Of a DNA stretch of 64,000 nucleotides, positions 13,614 to 26,307 are shown piece after piece. The stretch is from the NCBI GenBank assembly GCA_030523765.1, contig JAUNHX010000004.1:1-64000 (forward strand). The letters are read 5' to 3'. This DNA is from Bacteroidales bacterium (GTDB lineage: Bacteria > Bacteroidota > Bacteroidia > Bacteroidales > P3). The translations under genes and the position numbers were made by a program. The stretch's first letter is position 1; each line of letters starts with the position of its first letter. The notes beneath the pieces were generated by a model. The model had not been told where the DNA came from. It saw only the letters and a program-made list of their open reading frames with translations, and ran no database searches.

Positions 13614-16427
13614 ATGAAGAAAGTCCTTATGCTGCTTGCCGTGATGGCAATCAGTACCTTCCAACTGCTGGCCTCGCCGGCTTACCCTGAACTCATTAAG
13701 TTTCAACAACCCAAGCACGACATCAGCCTCAACATCTACCTCAAAGGTGATGAGCGTGTGCATTGGGCAGAAACAGAAGATGGCTACAGTCTTGTTCATG
13801 CTGATGATGGCACCTTGATGTATGCCACCCTCGATGAGCACGGCGATATGGTGCCTTCGCAATTCATCGCTACCGATTTCAAAGATCGCGATGAGGTGGT
13901 TCTCGAATTCCTTAGTAAGACTCCCAAGCATCTCACCTTCAGCAAATATCAAGTTGAACAGATGGTTTCTATTTGGACCGATATGAGCAAGATGAAATAT
14001 GCTCCTAAGATGATGACAAATGTGGTGGGACAGAAGAAGTTCCTTGTGATCCTCTTCCAATTCCCCGACCTAGAGTTTACCCATCGTCCCTCTGCTTTCC
14101 AAAACCTCTTCAACCAGGTGGGTTACTCGGTGGGTAGTGCTACAGGTAGCGTTCACGACTATTACTATGATGTCTCGGGCGGACTTTTCTCACTGCAGGT
14201 CGATGTGGTAGGTCCCTATACCGCTAATGAAGGTTTCGCCCACTATGGAGCCAACGAGGGCTATCAAGATTTTGCCGAAGAGGCTGTTGAGAACGCTTCG
14301 GCCGATGTTGATTTCTCTGACTATGACAATGATAACGATGGGTATATCGATGGACTTCATATCATCTTTGCGGGTCATGGTGAAGAAGCAGGCGCCAGTT
14401 CCGATCATATTTGGTCGCATAAATGGAACATTTTCAGTTCGCCTATCTACAACAACACCATCGTCAATGTCTACTCTTGTTCGCCTGAATGTAGCGGCAA
14501 CAACGGCACTACTCTCACCGCTATCGGTGTGATTTGCCACGAGTTGGGTCACGTATTTGGTGCTCCCGACTATTATGATACTGATTATGCTGGTTCGGGT
14601 GGAGAATACCCTGGATTGGGTCAGTGGGACATCATGTCGAGTGGCAGCTGGAATCGGGGTGGTCACTATCCTGCCCATCATAACGCTTACACCAAAGCCT
14701 ATATCTATCGTTGGATTACAGTCGATACCCTCGATAGCCCTCGTGCCGTTACGATGCTCCCCACTACTGAGAGCAGCAGCGATTTCTATCGCATCAACAC
14801 CAGCACTGAAGGCGATTTCTTCTTGCTTGAGAACCGTCAGCATACAAAATGGGATCGTTATATTCCTGGTCACGGATTGATCGTGTATCATGCTCACCCT
14901 AATGCTCATGGGGCTTCTGTTGATAATTCCAAACATCCGCAGCAGCTCTATATCTTGGCACAAACCAACGTCACCGACTCGTTCCCCAACTACAGCGCCT
15001 CTTCGTATGGTTACCTCAACTCGAGCGCTACTCCTCTTCCTGGTACTAGCAACCGTCGCATGCTCACCGATTACACGTGTCCCCGTCTCCGTCCTTGGAG
15101 TCAGGCACTCAACAATACCCCCATCACACAGATTAGTGAAAACAATGATGCTCATACTGTCTCTTTCTGCTTTATGGGTGCTTCTCCTAGCTCTTCCAAT
15201 CTGCGTGCCGAAGGTATCAACGACAATACCATCCGTATTGACTGGAATAATTACGGCGACTATCAGAGTATCCTGATCTATTCTTCTGACAGTCTTTTCA
15301 CTACAGCAGATAGTGCTTACCTTACAGCCGACACCATCGGCAACAACATCGTTGCCTATCGCGGTATCAATACTACCCAGTACTTGTCTGATCTTGCAGC
15401 CAACACAACCTATTACTTCAAACTCCTTACCCGTCTTGACGATAGCACCTTCATGCAACCCCTATTCACCTCTGCTGCAACACTTGCTTGCTCGGCCGAG
15501 AATTGGGGATTGGAGAATTTCGAAGCAATAGCGGATACCCTTGATCTGCCCGAATGCTGGGAGGCAATCAGCAATACAGCTAGCAACAACTGGTATATCG
15601 CCTCTGAGAATGGCAACCATTATGTGGCCGTTTCGCCACGCAGCGCTACAGCGACAAACTATATCTTGCAAACGGCTCCTTATCATCTTGATAGTGCCAA
15701 CAACACCATCCTCTCTTTCAAGGCCCGTTTCGATAATGCTGATGCTGATCACAAACTCTATATCCTTCGTCGTCGCGACATTGAACAGCAGTTCGACACC
15801 ATCATCATCATCACTCCTGATAGCAGCAGTGAATGGAAGACCTATTATTATGATATCTCTACCCCCGGAAGATACAACATATTGCAGTTCCTCTTCCAAG
15901 GTGACAACAATCGGGGTATTGCTCTCGATGACATCCGTTTACAATCGGGCATACTGCTGAGCACCACCAACTCTGAAGGGGGATTCCTCTATCCTCAAGG
16001 CTACAATGTTTACCAGTATGGAGACACCGTTCATTTCCGCATGATGCGTCAAAGTGGTTACAAATTTAAGGCTCTTTATATCAATAATAGTAACTACACC
16101 TCGCATGTCGATACTACTCGCTATCCCTCATTCGATTGGGTGATCCGTTTCAGCAGTACGGCTCGCGGTCTTTTTGAACGCGACTTGGCTATCGATGATG
16201 TAGAAACTGCAATGCCTGTCTTCTATCCCAACCCTACCAACAATTGGGTTACTATCGATCAGATTCCTAATGGCATTGATCGTATCACGCTGCACGATAT
16301 CTATGGTCGTGTACTGCGTACATATTCTGTTGAAGGTAGCAGTCTTCGCATCAACCTTGCAGCAATGCCTCGGGGGCTTTACCTGATCCGTATCGGCGAT
16401 CGTATTCACAAAGTAATGAAGGAGTAA
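13614..16427 (+). CDS. Secreted M6 family metalloprotease with T9SS sorting domain
   Basis: A 937-residue exported protease. Order: signal peptide (about 1-20), propeptide-like region (to about 135), M6 (immune inhibitor A-like) catalytic domain with the zinc motif H309-E-L-G-H313-x-x-G-A-P-D, Asp-rich calcium-like segments (D-Y-D-N-D-N-D-G-Y), a fibronectin-like middle, a concanavalin-like region and a C-terminal sorting domain from about 855 (F-Y-P-N-P-T-N-N-W, then G-R-V-L-R-T-Y and M-P-R-G-L-Y-L-I-R-I). The last part fits type A T9SS cargo. Catalytic residues are intact. It is followed by a strong terminator and likely degrades extracellular protein. Confidence 0.92.
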   Translation: MKKVLMLLAVMAISTFQLLASPAYPELIKFQQPKHDISLNIYLKGDERVHWAETEDGYSLVHADDGTLMYATLDEHGDMVPSQFIATDFKDRDEVVLEFLSKTPKHLTFSKYQVEQMVSIWTDMSKMKYAPKMMTNVVGQKKFLVILFQFPDLEFTHRPSAFQNLFNQVGYSVGSATGSVHDYYYDVSGGLFSLQVDVVGPYTANEGFAHYGANEGYQDFAEEAVENASADVDFSDYDNDNDGYIDGLHIIFAGHGEEAGASSDHIWSHKWNIFSSPIYNNTIVNVYSCSPECSGNNGTTLTAIGVICHELGHVFGAPDYYDTDYAGSGGEYPGLGQWDIMSSGSWNRGGHYPAHHNAYTKAYIYRWITVDTLDSPRAVTMLPTTESSSDFYRINTSTEGDFFLLENRQHTKWDRYIPGHGLIVYHAHPNAHGASVDNSKHPQQLYILAQTNVTDSFPNYSASSYGYLNSSATPLPGTSNRRMLTDYTCPRLRPWSQALNNTPITQISENNDAHTVSFCFMGASPSSSNLRAEGINDNTIRIDWNNYGDYQSILIYSSDSLFTTADSAYLTADTIGNNIVAYRGINTTQYLSDLAANTTYYFKLLTRLDDSTFMQPLFTSAATLACSAENWGLENFEAIADTLDLPECWEAISNTASNNWYIASENGNHYVAVSPRSATATNYILQTAPYHLDSANNTILSFKARFDNADADHKLYILRRRDIEQQFDTIIIITPDSSSEWKTYYYDISTPGRYNILQFLFQGDNNRGIALDDIRLQSGILLSTTNSEGGFLYPQGYNVYQYGDTVHFRMMRQSGYKFKALYINNSNYTSHVDTTRYPSFDWVIRFSSTARGLFERDLAIDDVETAMPVFYPNPTNNWVTIDQIPNGIDRITLHDIYGRVLRTYSVEGSSLRINLAAMPRGLYLIRIGDRIHKVMKE

Positions 16428-16845: not shown

Positions 16846-17676
16846 CTAACGGATAAGGGTGATGGTGCCTCGATTATGTTTGATACCAAACTGTGCATCG
16901 CGATATTCAATCACATAAACATAGGTGCCCATGGGTTGTGCTTCACCGTGCATAGTTCCGTCCCATGCAGCATTCACATCGTGCGATGCATATACTAGCT
17001 TGCCTCCACGATTGAAGATGCGGATGGTGTAGGAGATAATCTGACTTCCTTCACGTGGAGTTATCGTAAAGCGGCGTACCTGATCGTTGGCATCATCGGG
17101 CGAGAATGCATTGGGAATATATATTAGGTCATCGTCCGCATTGAGAGTCACAGCTTTGCCGCTACTAGGAGAAGAGACGGTGGAGGGGGTGCTTGTAGTA
17201 TTGGATGGAGCAGCATCAGCAACAACAGTTGGTGCAGCAGAGGTGGTAGTTTCTGTTGACACACGCTGTTGTGTAGGCGTTACCTTCTGAAACTTAGCGA
17301 TAGGAATAGTATTGGGATTCACCCCTACCAACTGACTCGATACTTGTTGCCCCTCTGATGAGTTAGTGACTGATTGAGGAGGATGGGTAGAGGAAACCTG
17401 GGGTGCCACTTCATTAGTGACGACAGGAGAGGGTGATTGCTGCTCAACCACAGGAGTGGGAGTAAGCTGAGCCACCTCCAAGGGGGCGTTATCGATAGAT
17501 GAACGACTTACCGTCCATACTACTACACTAGCGGCAACTAGTGTTGCTGCAGCACCTACGATACCCCAACGACGAAGCGCTGTTTGATGACGCATACGGG
17601 TATTGATGCGATCCCATACAGAGGGGTCGGGGGTGACAGAAGTTTGGTCAAGTCGTTTTTTCAAATCATTTTTCAT
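16846..17676 (-). CDS. Putative anti-sigma factor with T9SS type B / gliding-type C-terminal domain
   Basis: A 276-residue protein of unusual build. Residues 1-36 are charged and resemble the cytoplasmic part of Bacteroidota anti-sigma factors (P-D-P-S-V-W-D-R-I near 17-25). One membrane span follows (about 38-57), then a Pro/Ser/Thr/Val-rich linker (about 60-180), then a gliding-motility-type domain (187-276) with I-P-N-A-F-S-P-D-D, I-R-I-F-N-R-G-G-K-L-V-Y and M-G-T-Y-V-Y-V. The same domain ends the large exported proteins at 21430-26108. The gene lies 69 bp downstream of an ECF sigma gene on the same strand. Seen: the domain order. Inferred: it restrains that sigma factor and the outer domain senses something in the envelope, perhaps T9SS state. 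Confidence 0.75.
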   Translation of the reverse strand: MKNDLKKRLDQTSVTPDPSVWDRINTRMRHQTALRRWGIVGAAATLVAASVVVWTVSRSSIDNAPLEVAQLTPTPVVEQQSPSPVVTNEVAPQVSSTHPPQSVTNSSEGQQVSSQLVGVNPNTIPIAKFQKVTPTQQRVSTETTTSAAPTVVADAAPSNTTSTPSTVSSPSSGKAVTLNADDDLIYIPNAFSPDDANDQVRRFTITPREGSQIISYTIRIFNRGGKLVYASHDVNAAWDGTMHGEAQPMGTYVYVIEYRDAQFGIKHNRGTITLIR

Positions 17677-17745
17677 TGTGTGATCTCCTTATTCAAATAC
17701 GGTATAACTATTATATTATAGATCATTCAGTTTCTTTAACTTTAG

Positions 17746-18297
17746 CTAACGTTGATGGATGCCCATCTTCTCTAGTTTGGCTATCAGCATCTGTCGTGCT
17801 CGCGATGCGTTGCTACGAACAGTCGATTCGCCTACCCCTAACTGTTGAGCAATCTCCTTGTCGGAATAGCCCTCCACTTCACGCAGGTTGAAAGTGGTGC
17901 GGAGCATGCGGGGTAGCTCCGTGATTGCCTGCTGGATCTTATCGATATCATATTGGGTAAGATCGTTCACCACCTGAAAATCATTGCCCCCCAACGGAAT
18001 CTCATCGATCGACACTAGGTCGACCTTCTTTCGGAGCGAAGAGAGTGCCGTATTGATCATAATGCGCTCTATCCAGGAACGTAACTGGGCGGCATCCTTG
18101 AGGTTACGCAGGCTATTGAAAACTTTAACGAAACCATCTTGAAGTACATCTTGGGCCTCATCGCGATTGCCCATATAGCGGATACAGAGGGCCAGCATTG
18201 TGGGGGCAAAACGATCGTAGAGTTGCTTCTGCGCCCGGGGGTCGTGCTTCAAGCATGCCAGTACTAACTGTTCGTTCTCCGTTTTCATTTTAGTCAA
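17746..18297 (-). CDS. ECF-type RNA polymerase sigma factor
   Basis: A 183-residue sigma-70 family protein with region 2 (Y-D-R-F-A-P-T-M-L-A-L-C-I-R-Y, then D-E-A-Q-D-V-L-Q-D-G-F-V-K-V-F) and region 4 (L-P-R-M-L-R-T-T-F-N-L-R-E-V-E-G-Y-S, then I-A-Q-Q-L-G-V-G-E-S-T-V-R-S-N-A-S-R-A). Size and lack of region 3 place it in the ECF group. The downstream membrane protein is the likely partner anti-sigma factor. The regulon is unknown; T9SS or surface genes are a reasonable guess from the partner's C-terminal domain. Confidence 0.93.
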   Translation of the reverse strand: MTKMKTENEQLVLACLKHDPRAQKQLYDRFAPTMLALCIRYMGNRDEAQDVLQDGFVKVFNSLRNLKDAAQLRSWIERIMINTALSSLRKKVDLVSIDEIPLGGNDFQVVNDLTQYDIDKIQQAITELPRMLRTTFNLREVEGYSDKEIAQQLGVGESTVRSNASRARQMLIAKLEKMGIHQR

Positions 18298-18334
18298 GAC
18301 GCATCATTAGCAGTTTTTGCTGCAAGCAATACTG

Positions 18335-21429: not shown

Positions 21430-23694
21430 TTACCTTAACAGCTGTACCGTACCCGATTGGGTAAGAGGATTGCTCGGATCAATGATATTAGTATAAGTGG
21501 CTTTATATACATACGATCCTTGGGGCATCTTATGTCCATCAACGGTTCCATCCCACGAGCCATCGAAACCTTCAAACTGGTAGATTAACAATCCATTACG
21601 ATTATATATCTCTACTTTAAGACTAAGGATACCTAAACCTTGAGCTTGAAATACTTTGTTAGAAATTTCGTCGGGTGTGAAAGCATTCGGGAACCAAATA
21701 GCCTCCTTGTATTGATAGATGCGATAGCGTGCCGTATCTACACAGTCGTAGGCATAAGCCACAAGAAAGACATCCACCGAATCTTCCTCCTTTTTCACCG
21801 TATAGTGAAGTCGTTCTTGATTGGAAGTAGTTCCATCGGGGAGTTTCCATAAAATACGCTGATAGCCGTGACTCTGATTGGAGAGCATAATATCGCGGTT
21901 GCCCAGGGTGGCGTAGGGAGGCGATGCACCGATATAGGCTTTCAGCGAAGTGTCGCGTGTATAACTAAGGCTATAAATACTATCGCAGCCCTCTTCGGTG
22001 GTATACGTGATAGAAGGAGCATCGGTGGTTTGTTCATAAGTAACACCATCAATCCAAGTGTAGGGCATACAATCAACTCGATATTCCACCGTATGAGGCA
22101 CCTCGCGAGCCAAAAGGTAAAGAGTTTCGTTGTAAGGACATCCCTCGGGGGTAACGGCCGCCCTAGTATAGGTTCCTGGCTGATGAAGTTGCTGTTCACC
22201 ATAGGCATAGGTAACTCCTATGCAGAAACTATCGGTAACCGATCGATCAATATTATTAATATTGTGTATGGGGAGTACCACACTATCGAGACATCCGTTG
22301 GCAAACTCTGCCCGGATGGTGAGATTGCTGACACGCTCAAGCGAGTCGCGATAGATACCAGTAAACAGATCGAGTTGATTGGCTGATACTGTAACAACAG
22401 TGCCATCAGTTGAACCATTAACCTGTAGATTAGGGTTATCGCAATACCAACTCAAGCCTGTATGAGGGATCGTATCTTCGGCAGGGAAGATACTTGTATA
22501 AGTTCCTGCCTCCTCCAAGCATAGCAACGTATCGCCTATTACATGCAACAAAGCAGCAAAATCGCACCCTACAGTAACGGTATAAGCTATATCGTAGAAG
22601 GTACCATTGGCTGAATGACAAGTAAGACGCATCGTATATTTTGTAGTTACCCTAGGACTAACCATTATACTACGATATGAAACACCTGTCTGTTCACAGA
22701 GATAGATAGAGTCGTTAGGATTGGTGGAGGTAATCTCCATAGCGGAATCGACCGTAGGACCCAGATACCAACGTATCGTATCGTCTGTAGCACCATAAGG
22801 GGCAAAACGCCACGCTTCGGGGGTAAGAATATTTTGGTTAATAAGAGGGTTGCGATTGGAGGGAGTATAGGCATTGAAACCCAAACTATCGATAATGCCT
22901 ACCACACACTGATTATGATCTGTACCACAAGCGGCCCAATGCCGCTTGATGTGAACCTCGATGATATTGGTTGACTCGTAGCAAGCAATCTGACTCGTGC
23001 TATAGTTCTGCGAGCAAGAATAGTATCTATTATTACCAAACTTAGGTATAGCATTATAACTTACCAACAACATACGACACTCAGGACCATTGTGTTGTGG
23101 AGGCATCGTAAAGATAGCCTTATGGATGCCCGAATTTGCAAAACCAGTGCTATCGCAATAGCGAGGATCAATATCTTCCCATAGCCCTAAAATATTGTTT
23201 TTGATATGCTTTGTATTTAACGTTGAAGCACTAGGAATAGGAGCATAAGTAGAAACATTGTATGGCATACTCTCGTTACATACCGAAGTATCGAACGAGA
23301 TGTTGCCGTTAGGTCCTACCACCGCCTGAGTGTAAGTGTTGCCAAAGAAAACAAAAGGGAACGGCATCTGCATTGGGTTAGCATCATAAAGATCGTCATC
23401 CGTTACATTCAGTTTTCCTCCACCACCTGCGTGACTACAGAATGTGGGATCGGGCGGAGCATAGGGGATAGAGTAGACGTGATATCCTTGATAGGTTAGT
23501 GGAGGAACAAAGGTGGTAGCGCTCAGTTTGATGGTTCTATTATGGCAGTTAACGAGGGTATCCCAACCACGCTCCACCATCCGTGGGTCGTTACTTGATT
23601 CAGCATAATAAATATCTGGACATTGAGCCCACAAGGAGCCACACCAACCAAAGGTTAGCAACAAAAGAGATACTATAATAGTGTTTCGTTTCAT
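21430..23694 (-). CDS. Large exported protein with gliding-type (T9SS type B) C-terminal domain, paralogue 1
   Basis: A 754-residue exported protein, using the ATG at 23694 (M-K-R-N-T-I-I-V-S-L-L), which gives a clean signal peptide ending S-L-W-A-Q; an upstream ATG at 23718 adds eight residues. The N-terminal third has a conserved block also found in the next gene (C-P-D-I-Y-Y, F-C-S-H-A-G-G-G-G-K-L, V-V-G-P-N-G-N-I-S-F-D-T-S). Ig-like segments follow. The C-terminal about 90 residues are the gliding-motility domain (F-P-N-A-F-T-P-D-E, E-I-Y-N-R-N-G, M-P-Q-G-S-Y-V-Y). This domain targets proteins to the type IX secretion system. Function is otherwise unknown; a surface adhesin or structural role is plausible. 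Confidence 0.85.
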   Translation of the reverse strand: MKRNTIIVSLLLLTFGWCGSLWAQCPDIYYAESSNDPRMVERGWDTLVNCHNRTIKLSATTFVPPLTYQGYHVYSIPYAPPDPTFCSHAGGGGKLNVTDDDLYDANPMQMPFPFVFFGNTYTQAVVGPNGNISFDTSVCNESMPYNVSTYAPIPSASTLNTKHIKNNILGLWEDIDPRYCDSTGFANSGIHKAIFTMPPQHNGPECRMLLVSYNAIPKFGNNRYYSCSQNYSTSQIACYESTNIIEVHIKRHWAACGTDHNQCVVGIIDSLGFNAYTPSNRNPLINQNILTPEAWRFAPYGATDDTIRWYLGPTVDSAMEITSTNPNDSIYLCEQTGVSYRSIMVSPRVTTKYTMRLTCHSANGTFYDIAYTVTVGCDFAALLHVIGDTLLCLEEAGTYTSIFPAEDTIPHTGLSWYCDNPNLQVNGSTDGTVVTVSANQLDLFTGIYRDSLERVSNLTIRAEFANGCLDSVVLPIHNINNIDRSVTDSFCIGVTYAYGEQQLHQPGTYTRAAVTPEGCPYNETLYLLAREVPHTVEYRVDCMPYTWIDGVTYEQTTDAPSITYTTEEGCDSIYSLSYTRDTSLKAYIGASPPYATLGNRDIMLSNQSHGYQRILWKLPDGTTSNQERLHYTVKKEEDSVDVFLVAYAYDCVDTARYRIYQYKEAIWFPNAFTPDEISNKVFQAQGLGILSLKVEIYNRNGLLIYQFEGFDGSWDGTVDGHKMPQGSYVYKATYTNIIDPSNPLTQSGTVQLLR

Positions 23695-23807
23695 TATATC
23701 CAATATTTTTTTCACCATTGAAGGCTGTTAGGGTTGTTGTTGTTTTGTAAAGAAAAGCTTCAAACTGATGTCTGAAGAGAGGGCAGGGATATAACTATCC
23801 CTACCCT

Positions 23808-26108
23808 TTATCGGATCAGCAGGACATTACCCTTGTTACTGATAGGGTTAACTGGATTAATGACGGTAGTGTAGCGAGCACGCCAAACATAGTTGCCCTG
23901 TGGCATATCGTTGCCATTGAAGTCAGTACCATCCCAGAAACCTTCTGGATCGGTAATCTTATTAATCAAGATTCCGCGACGATCATAGATCTCCATCTCC
24001 ATCGTCTCGATACCAATACCGATTGCTTGGAAGTGATTGTTCTCCTCACGTCCTGGAGTAAATGCATTGGGGAACCACACGGCCTCTTTCAACAGAGGGA
24101 TAGTGATATAGGCAGTATCAATGCATCCGTATGGACTGAAGGCCTCAAGCATGAAGGAGATAGAATCCTGTTCGGTGGGGAAATTGAAATACACTGTCAC
24201 ATTAGTATCAACACGTCCATCAGGCAGATACCAACGACGTCGGTCACTACCCTTACTCACATCCTTCAGCATAAGACTGAGGTTATCGAGTGTAGCATGC
24301 AAAGGATTGGCTTCAATGATAGCTTCGAGCGAATTATCGAAAGTGAAGTTGAGGGTAATCACACTATCGCAACCCCACTGATTGGGAATAGTAACCGTAG
24401 CGGTATTGTTCGACTCGTAATATGTATTGCTGTCCATCCAGGTAAGGGGATGACAATCTTTCTGATAATCGATACCACTATTGCGCGAATGAGTTTCGAG
24501 CCGTAGGTATTTGGTATAAGGGCATCCTTCGACCGTTGCTGTATCGTAACTATAGGTACCCACCATCGTATAATCCTGACCACAGAAGGTATAGGCCTCA
24601 CCGTCGCAGATGCTACCATAAGTAGTGTCATCGATACGGTTGATATGGCGGATAATAACGAGCGCACTGTCCTTGCATCCATTGTTGAAGGTAGTATTGA
24701 GCGAGAAGCGAGTCACTTTATCGCGATCGTTTACACGAGGACCAAAGAAGAGGTAAGGCTGACTAGCGGGGATCACCACTCGTGTTGAATCGAGGTTGAA
24801 GGTGTAGCGCAGATTTGGGTTATCGCACAGCCAACGGTTATGGGTAGGATAGGTAAGATCGTTGCTGCTTAAGTCGATGCTGATCGTATCAGCAACATTC
24901 TTACATACTACAGTATCGGTAGTAACACTCATATTGTGACTAAAATCGACGCCCACATGGAAAGGATAGTTCACCACGTAAGGTACACCCGTAGCGCTAG
25001 TATAACGCAACTGAACAGTATAAGTGGTAGGAACAGTTGGCGATACCCACAAACCCATATACTGTGACACACCATACTCATCGACCTCTACATTGCATTT
25101 GTATACCGAATCGACAGGGCTATGGTTAGTGATAGTAGCCATAATCTCATCTTCATCGTCAGTACTATCGCCATAGAACCAACGAATATTGCGAATGGTA
25201 CGACCTTTAGGGGTAAAACGCCAAGCTTCAGGAACGGTGATATCTTGGTTGTTGAGGGGATTACGACCGGGAGCTGTATAGGCAGTATCGCCTGTTGGGT
25301 TGATGATACCCACAACACACTTGTTGCCATCGGTGCCGCAGGTAGCACTATGCCGTTTGATGTGAACCTCAATGATATTGGTACCCTCGTAACATACAAT
25401 CTGACTGGTGCTATAATGGGTAGGAGCTTCGGCAGCACTGCTATGACCAAACTTAGGAACACCATTATAACTCACACAAAGCATACGACATTGAGGACCA
25501 TTGTGAGCAGCAGGGATGGTATAGATAGCCTTATGGATACCTGCATTGGGAACACCTGTATTAGAGAAATAACGGGGATCGATATCCTCCCAGAGACCAA
25601 AAATATTATTCTTTACAGCACCTTCAGTTTGAGTTGTCGAACTAGGGATAGGAGCATAGTTTTGTACACTATAAGGCATAAATTGACCCGTCATGCTAGT
25701 ATTGAAACTTACATTTCCGTTAGGTCCCACCACTGCCGAATTATATGTACGGCCAAAGAAACTAAACGAGAAGGGGAACGACATCACATTGTTATCGTAA
25801 TAGTCATCCTGATTAACAGGCAACTGACCACCGCCACCAGCATGACTGCAGAAAGTGGTGTCGGGTGGGTTGTATGGAATCGATTCCACCTCGTAATGGT
25901 CGAACTCTGAGCAAGTGATATAAGGAGTACATATCAGTATGACAGCAGGGTTGTCGCACGTTACCAACGTATCCCATCCTCTGTTAACCAACGATTGACG
26001 AGTTGAAGCATCGCCATAATAGATATCGGGACACTGAGCCTGTAAAGTCATACCCAATCCGAGTATCATAGCAAATGCAACAAAGTACTTTTTATAGATC
26101 TTATTCAT
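23808..26108 (-). CDS. Large exported protein with gliding-type (T9SS type B) C-terminal domain, paralogue 2
   Basis: A 766-residue paralogue of the downstream neighbour with the same layout: signal peptide ending L-Q-A-Q, the shared block (C-P-D-I-Y-Y, F-C-S-H-A-G-G-G-G-Q-L, V-V-G-P-N-G-N-V-S-F-N-T-S, I-K-R-H-S-A-T-C-G-T), Ig-like repeats and the C-terminal gliding domain (F-P-N-A-F-T-P-G, E-I-Y-D-R-R-G, M-P-Q-G-N-Y-V-W). The conserved glycine-rich F-C-S-H-A-G-G-G-G motif suggests a fold or ligand site kept in both. The two genes are 113 bp apart and arose by tandem duplication. T9SS export is inferred from the domain; the role is unknown. Confidence 0.85.
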   Translation of the reverse strand: MNKIYKKYFVAFAMILGLGMTLQAQCPDIYYGDASTRQSLVNRGWDTLVTCDNPAVILICTPYITCSEFDHYEVESIPYNPPDTTFCSHAGGGGQLPVNQDDYYDNNVMSFPFSFSFFGRTYNSAVVGPNGNVSFNTSMTGQFMPYSVQNYAPIPSSTTQTEGAVKNNIFGLWEDIDPRYFSNTGVPNAGIHKAIYTIPAAHNGPQCRMLCVSYNGVPKFGHSSAAEAPTHYSTSQIVCYEGTNIIEVHIKRHSATCGTDGNKCVVGIINPTGDTAYTAPGRNPLNNQDITVPEAWRFTPKGRTIRNIRWFYGDSTDDEDEIMATITNHSPVDSVYKCNVEVDEYGVSQYMGLWVSPTVPTTYTVQLRYTSATGVPYVVNYPFHVGVDFSHNMSVTTDTVVCKNVADTISIDLSSNDLTYPTHNRWLCDNPNLRYTFNLDSTRVVIPASQPYLFFGPRVNDRDKVTRFSLNTTFNNGCKDSALVIIRHINRIDDTTYGSICDGEAYTFCGQDYTMVGTYSYDTATVEGCPYTKYLRLETHSRNSGIDYQKDCHPLTWMDSNTYYESNNTATVTIPNQWGCDSVITLNFTFDNSLEAIIEANPLHATLDNLSLMLKDVSKGSDRRRWYLPDGRVDTNVTVYFNFPTEQDSISFMLEAFSPYGCIDTAYITIPLLKEAVWFPNAFTPGREENNHFQAIGIGIETMEMEIYDRRGILINKITDPEGFWDGTDFNGNDMPQGNYVWRARYTTVINPVNPISNKGNVLLIR

Positions 26109-26307
26109 TAGTATTATATTTTAACGTAGCCAAATTAACCTTTTTATTCTAGACTCAATTAACCCTTCTTTTGCTGCATAACTTGTGTGTTAAAAATATT
26201 TAATAGATAATTACAGCACTCTAAGTCAATCAACTAATAAAAACACAAAATTAAAAAATATTTATATAAGTTTTATCGACCCATTATGTTTGAAGGAATT
26301 GATGTTA

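Follow-up and report, generated by a model that had tools for sequence, protein, structure and literature searches.

A membrane protein encoded directly behind an ECF sigma factor gene in the 64,000-nucleotide stretch of Bacteroidales DNA analyzed here (the window) is best read as a Dma-like dual-membrane anti-sigma factor, in which the outer-membrane anchor is a sorting domain of the type IX secretion system (T9SS) and which controls T9SS cargo. Taken jointly, the anti-sigma identity of this protein, the exchange of a C-terminal domain (CTD) for a beta-barrel among its relatives and a regulon made up of T9SS cargo are considered likely. No description of a CTD-bearing anti-sigma factor was found in the open-access literature. 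The two genes, and the segments into which the product of the second one can be divided, are located in the window as follows.

17746..18288, minus strand: ECF sigma factor gene (Pfam Sigma70_r2 and Sigma70_r4_2; aligned with 27 paired sigma factors)
16846..17676, minus strand: predicted anti-sigma factor with a terminal T9SS type-B CTD, 276 aa (Pfam and NCBIfam matches, relatives, alignment)
17569..17676, minus strand: residues 1-36, predicted cytoplasmic anti-sigma domain (N-terminal profile relatives; AlphaFold tandem model)
17509..17565, minus strand: residues 38-56, single inner-membrane span (hydropathy maximum 2.0, positive-inside)
17140..17508, minus strand: residues 57-179, Pro/Thr/Ser/Ala/Gln/Val-rich linker, periplasmic and probably disordered (composition)
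16849..17121, minus strand: residues 186-276, T9SS type-B CTD (PF13585 and TIGR04131 over cut-off; AlphaFold and Foldseek)

The sigma factor gene was identified through Pfam matches to Sigma70_r4_2 (1.9e-14) and Sigma70_r2 (7.6e-13). Its product clears the cut-off of the sigma70-ECF superfamily only, and the narrower NCBIfam sigma models listed were not reached. Translation probably starts at the ATG at 18288 rather than at the TTG at 18297, since the latter overlaps the -10 element of the promoter and the former corresponds to the conserved first residue in the alignment. A gap of 69 bp separates the sigma gene from the anti-sigma gene, both of which lie on the minus strand. The four-part architecture was found at full length in about 32 of 36 same-genus genomes, in proteins of 266-302 aa, and an ECF sigma gene is located immediately upstream, with a 4-bp overlap in some cases, at all 30 genus loci fetched and at a paralogue. 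Hence, neither the architecture nor the pairing can be attributed to chance. The paralogue belongs to a divergent second sigma/anti-sigma-CTD pair of the same genome (contig C45, 19469-20275), which has a different upstream sequence.

The N-terminal segment of the anti-sigma protein consists of 36 residues and is cationic, with a net charge of +5 before the hydrophobic span and -1 after it, and it presents in the genus alignment the motif LKxY..xPDxxVWxxIxxRLRxR (also written LKxYxxQPDxxVWxxIxxRLRxR). Profiles were built from this segment and the membrane span alone, and the relatives thus identified, which are spread across the class Bacteroidia, were then classified with local HMMs. All of the distinct relatives examined (~167/~167) sit directly behind an ECF sigma gene. 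These profile matches and gene neighborhoods identify the N-terminus as an anti-sigma domain that is widespread in Bacteroidia and is predicted to bind the sigma factor. Membership in the zinc-binding (ZAS) or FecR anti-sigma groups was dropped, because no match to the zinc-finger PF13490 or to the FecR domain was obtained for the protein with Pfam or NCBIfam, and because it contains no cysteine. At six loci, a third kind of relative was observed, harboring the same N-terminus behind an ECF sigma gene in a protein of ~225-260 aa with a hydrophilic C-terminus and neither barrel nor CTD.

The putative interaction between the two proteins was modeled in AlphaFold, for the cognate pair only, as a single chain in which the sigma stop codon and the in-frame 23-codon gap were read through as an artificial linker leading into residues 1-61 of the anti-sigma protein, using an alignment of 37 such tandems (window included) and 51 sigma factors. 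The resulting model obtained a pLDDT of 88 (~95 for the anti-sigma part) and a pTM of 0.84, and presents the anti-sigma domain and the membrane span as one continuous helix. When both of its domains are compared with other sigma factor complexes, the modeled sigma factor matches the anti-sigma-bound state of SigW/RsiW over 154 residues at ~5 A, that of CnrH/CnrY over 152 residues at 6.2 A and that of RpoE/NepR at 5.1 A, and lies ~26 A apart from RNA-polymerase-bound SigH. The model provides support, but not proof, for a confident docking of the anti-sigma segment on a sigma factor held in an inhibited-type conformation.

Following the membrane span, the linker extends for about 125 residues, of which roughly three quarters are P, T, S, A, Q, V or E. 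Its sequence is variable and not conserved within the genus, where its length ranges from 122 to 156 residues, and a linker of this length suffices to span the periplasm. The C-terminal domain matches CHU_C/PF13585 at residues 186-276 (51.3 bits vs. a cut-off of 27) and the TIGR04131 type-B sorting domain (40.2 bits vs. a cut-off of 35, profile positions 3-85 of 85), and no other globular domain was recognized in the protein with Pfam or NCBIfam. Modeled alone with AlphaFold, the CTD adopts a beta-sandwich fold (pLDDT 94.9), for which Foldseek returned the T9SS entries 8glk_D and 8gl8_D and PorU, amid many Ig-like domains.

A prior, sequence-only reading of this region had described an ECF sigma gene followed, 69 bp downstream, by a membrane protein with a charged, anti-sigma-like N-terminal segment, one span, a long Pro/Thr-rich linker and a T9SS-type C-terminal domain facing the periplasm. 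Coordinates, strand and gap were all confirmed, and so was the architecture, the +5/-1 charge distribution being positive-inside. The anti-sigma character of the N-terminus agrees with the invariable location of its profile relatives behind ECF sigma genes and with the docking model, and the C-terminal domain could be assigned, by two profiles over their cut-offs, specifically to type B. Two of the checks proposed in that reading, a structure prediction of the sigma/anti-sigma contact and a search for the pair in other genomes, likewise turned out in its favor.

Among relatives, the same N-terminus carries either an outer-membrane beta-barrel (OMP_b-brl_2 over cut-off), a type-B CTD or a PKD-PKD-CTD arrangement, with a minority of relatives presenting neither barrel nor CTD. 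The association of these alternative ends with the T9SS was analyzed over the order, because nearly all of the nearest 61 genomes are SprA-positive and hence uninformative. SprA-positive genomes of the order contributed 34 CTD and 47 barrel proteins (CTD 34/81), versus no CTD and 15 barrel proteins in SprA-negative genomes (CTD 0/15; Fisher p = 9e-4), in a sample picked by N-terminal score, where a few barrels lacking an HMM match were assigned by inspecting their C-terminal strands and where the SprA-negative set stems from about six families and represents fewer than 15 independent events. Within this sample, CTD ends are confined to T9SS-bearing genomes and SprA-less genomes are devoid of them. 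On the tree of the sigma factors, parsimony requires at least five changes between CTD and barrel, of which two are imposed by branches with strong support. A single clade of 28 sigma factors, itself strongly supported, contains both CTD partners (21) and barrel partners (7). CTD and barrel ends have, by this phylogeny, been exchanged repeatedly. Given the common backbone, the repeated exchange and the lack of CTDs in SprA-negative genomes, the CTD behaves, in cells with a T9SS, like a functional replacement of the barrel. In three anti-sigma loci, the type-B CTD is preceded by PKD domains, which may be surface sensors.

The upstream regions of the paired sigma genes of the genus share a bipartite motif (TTGCARCAAAA ... 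GTCTATA), which attains an ad hoc score of 15 or higher in 34% of these genes versus 0.6% of shuffles. In the 2.4-Mb genome, the exact TGCARCAAAA-N14-GTCT pattern has only three sites: one ahead of the sigma gene and one ahead of each of two operons made up of CTD cargo genes in tandem, of which one operon is located inside the window.

18297..18324, minus strand: TGCAGCAAAA-N14-GTCT, predicted promoter of the sigma/anti-sigma operon, specific for this sigma factor (paired sigma genes share the motif in their upstream regions)
26151..26178, minus strand: second exact copy of the motif, ~43 bp upstream of the 766-aa CTD cargo gene
23808..26108, minus strand: predicted regulon member, secreted 766-aa protein with a signal peptide and a type-B CTD (CHU_C 7.8e-07; TIGR04131 over cut-off)
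21430..23718, minus strand: predicted regulon member, second gene of the same operon, 762-aa paralogue (47% identical) with a type-B CTD and no motif of its own

The third exact site is located on contig C1, 66 bp before a gene for a 923-aa CTD cargo protein that is followed by the gene for a 911-aa paralogue. None of the further CTD genes inspected in this genome carries the motif, and a genome-wide search allowing one mismatch yielded additional sites inside genes or with no gene after them, and no further regulon genes. In the other genomes of the genus, sites outside the sigma promoters precede five cargo genes of the type-B family (three of 945, 932 and 786 aa, plus two homologues truncated by the contig) and four cargo genes with a type-A CTD (2191, 1605, 1588 and 1525 aa), and the regulon is therefore not limited to type-B cargo. 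The remaining genus sites comprise one before a truncated lipoprotein gene, one without a gene and one at a contig end, and the weaker sites look like chance. As predicted by motif distribution, the regulon thus encompasses the sigma/anti-sigma operon itself and T9SS cargo, and not the T9SS machine. Since the predicted targets are T9SS cargo operons, the link of the anti-sigma protein to secretion is strengthened.

In nearly all genus members, the sigma start codon is located only ~6-9 nt past the -10-like GTCTATA (18286-18300 in the window), compared to leaders of ~40-100 nt in the cargo genes; the sigma transcript may have no leader, or almost none. Beside the pair, a plus-strand gene (13614-16427) encodes a 937-aa secreted metallopeptidase-like protein with a C-terminus (YPNP...GLYLIRI) that by eye resembles a type-A T9SS sorting domain. 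Two apparently identical genes for a 1045-aa CTD protein are arranged in tandem on contig C41, ~3.9 kb apart (around 7678 and 11623).

The genome encodes SprA and carries three PorP-like genes, the latter all on other contigs and none beside the sigma/anti-sigma pair. Compared with the other CTDs of the genome, those of the predicted regulon show no greater similarity to the CTD of the anti-sigma protein (~31-36% identity). A shuttle shared with the regulon is therefore not indicated, and the result is neutral with regard to competition between the anti-sigma CTD and cargo.

We propose a mechanism in which the N-terminal ~36 residues would hold the ECF sigma factor encoded upstream at the inner membrane, as suggested by the docking model and the strict gene pairing. 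A single helix would cross the inner membrane, and the ~125-residue linker, predicted to be disordered, would traverse the periplasm. By analogy with known type-B CTDs, the CTD would take the place of the barrel and probably dock to the T9SS at the outer membrane, where its most likely partner would be a PorP/SprF-type shuttle. PorP/SprF shuttles serve type-B CTDs (PMC12618676), and secretion of the latter needs five conserved motifs (PMC9143113, PMC12618676). Once released, the sigma factor would transcribe its own operon and the T9SS cargo operons, as the promoter motif predicts. The CTD would operate as a tethered mock cargo, competing with real cargo for access to a PorP/SprF shuttle or to the translocon, SprA. 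The extent to which these components are occupied, or the condition that they are in, would alter either the pull exerted on the anti-sigma factor or its proteolysis, and would thereby set sigma activity. As an outcome, cargo synthesis would follow the capacity for export and anchoring. It is plausible that secretion load is read out in this manner, and we put forward the competing mock cargo tentatively, as a serious possibility.

The main rival explanation regards the CTD as a mere substitute outer-membrane anchor, through which the protein would respond not to T9SS status but to another cue, such as the spacing of the envelope, stress at the outer membrane, a ligand at the surface or a protease. 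The interchange of CTD and barrel on one anti-sigma/sigma backbone is compatible with such a role, the PKD domains of some CTD types could be the real sensor, and Dma1 and Dma2 control vesiculation and polysaccharide loci in B. thetaiotaomicron (PMC13088901). In the genus of the window, however, the part of the protein beyond the inner membrane consists solely of a disordered linker and the CTD. This, together with a predicted regulon of T9SS cargo, leaves the plain anchor as a possible but somewhat doubtful explanation.

It is very unlikely that the protein is ordinary T9SS cargo, fully secreted upon cleavage of its hydrophobic stretch as a signal peptide. The type-B CTD over cut-off would be expected of cargo, and so would a weak cleavage pattern of small residues that may follow the hydrophobic stretch. 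However, the hydrophobic core starts near residue 38, behind the conserved charged domain, whereas six cargo proteins from this genome have theirs starting at residues 4-13, and from its position the stretch looks like an anchor. Moreover, the same N-terminus is found on barrel-type anti-sigma proteins, always behind ECF sigma genes, and is predicted to dock on the sigma factor. The plain-cargo reading was hence dropped on N-terminal architecture. Matches to PF13585 and TIGR04131 mark a domain and not its use, and the CTD could in principle be no more than the remnant of a gene fusion, decayed or inert, on a plain membrane anti-sigma factor. This is made highly improbable by the conservation of the CTD, which exceeds that of every other part of the protein in the genus alignment (P188, R223, G225, G244 and Y252 are invariant and the LIR end is kept), by its fit to the full TIGR04131 model, by its absence from T9SS-negative genomes and by its repeated exchange with the barrel. 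Lastly, the sequence-only reading had raised the possibility that the activity of the sortase, PorU, is read out through cleavage of the CTD. In favor of it, P. gingivalis PorA, a secreted, PorU-processed CTD protein, feeds PorXY-SigP (PMC7712824). The possibility was nevertheless dropped as extremely unlikely, because the domain belongs to type B, a class of CTDs not known to be processed by PorU, and because the one characterized type-B CTD of P. gingivalis, that of PG1035, stays uncleaved and requires neither PorU nor PorV for its binding to the PorP barrel (PMC9143113). What stands of that interpretation is the membrane-tethered anti-sigma factor with a T9SS domain facing the periplasm; PorU sensing is not supported.

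Among known systems, the closest to the Dma-like anti-sigma factor proposed here is the Dma family itself, described in B. thetaiotaomicron as anti-sigma factors that extend from the cytosol to the outer membrane and are paired with ECF21 sigma factors (PMC13088901). Both have a location beside an ECF sigma gene, a cytosolic anti-sigma domain and a reach from cytosol to outer membrane, and the barrel-type relatives with Dma architecture share their N-terminal domain with the window protein. The pairing, the predicted anti-sigma domain and the membrane span of Dma proteins were found in the window protein; the barrel, however, is present only in relatives, and the window protein ends in a T9SS type-B CTD. 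The predicted regulon also differs, consisting of T9SS cargo, whereas the targets reported for Dma1 and Dma2 are NigD1 or polysaccharide loci (PMC13088901). The window protein works like a Dma protein but is not one in the strict sense, its likeness to Dma1 and Dma2 being one of architecture rather than of compared sequence.

PorA has been presented as the first CTD protein with a part in regulating T9SS genes; it is fully secreted, with a signal peptide and a FimH-like domain, has been reported only in Porphyromonas and acts upstream of the two-component system controlling T9SS machinery genes (PMC7712824). PorA with PorXY-SigP resembles the present case in that a CTD protein influences a T9SS-linked ECF sigma pathway. 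In the window protein, in contrast, the anti-sigma factor itself bears the CTD, and cargo rather than machinery makes up the predicted targets. No FimH-like domain, as found ahead of the CTD in PorA (PGN_0123), was recognized in the window protein, and its N-terminus is unlike a signal peptide. Type-B cargo such as SprB and PG1035 belongs to the same CTD family (TIGR04131/PF13585), but is surface-exposed and has a short cleavable signal peptide, whereas the window protein is predicted to combine a cytoplasmic anti-sigma domain with a membrane anchor. In FecI/FecR, an outer-membrane event reaches the ECF sigma factor by way of an anti-sigma factor in the inner membrane, with the periplasmic domain of FecR contacting a TonB-dependent receptor. 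A similar passage of an outer-membrane event through an inner-membrane anti-sigma factor is proposed here, but the window protein itself bears the domain expected to engage the outer membrane, and no FecR/STN domain was found in it.

On the question of how cargo production is matched to export in Bacteroidota, the known route (PorXY-SigP, PorA) governs machinery genes in one genus. Here, the anti-sigma factor incorporates a sorting domain, and a promoter motif connects it with operons for cargo. Small proteins annotated with a "type-B sorting domain", which one would otherwise count as cargo, may thereby gain a function as anti-sigma factors, and the substitution offers a clue to the role of the Dma barrel, which may be that of engaging the outer membrane. 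The secretion-feedback hypothesis becomes testable with simple deletions. If the CTD does act as mock cargo, it would constitute a secretion-coupled feedback switch made from the sorting signal itself, in many families of the Bacteroidota.
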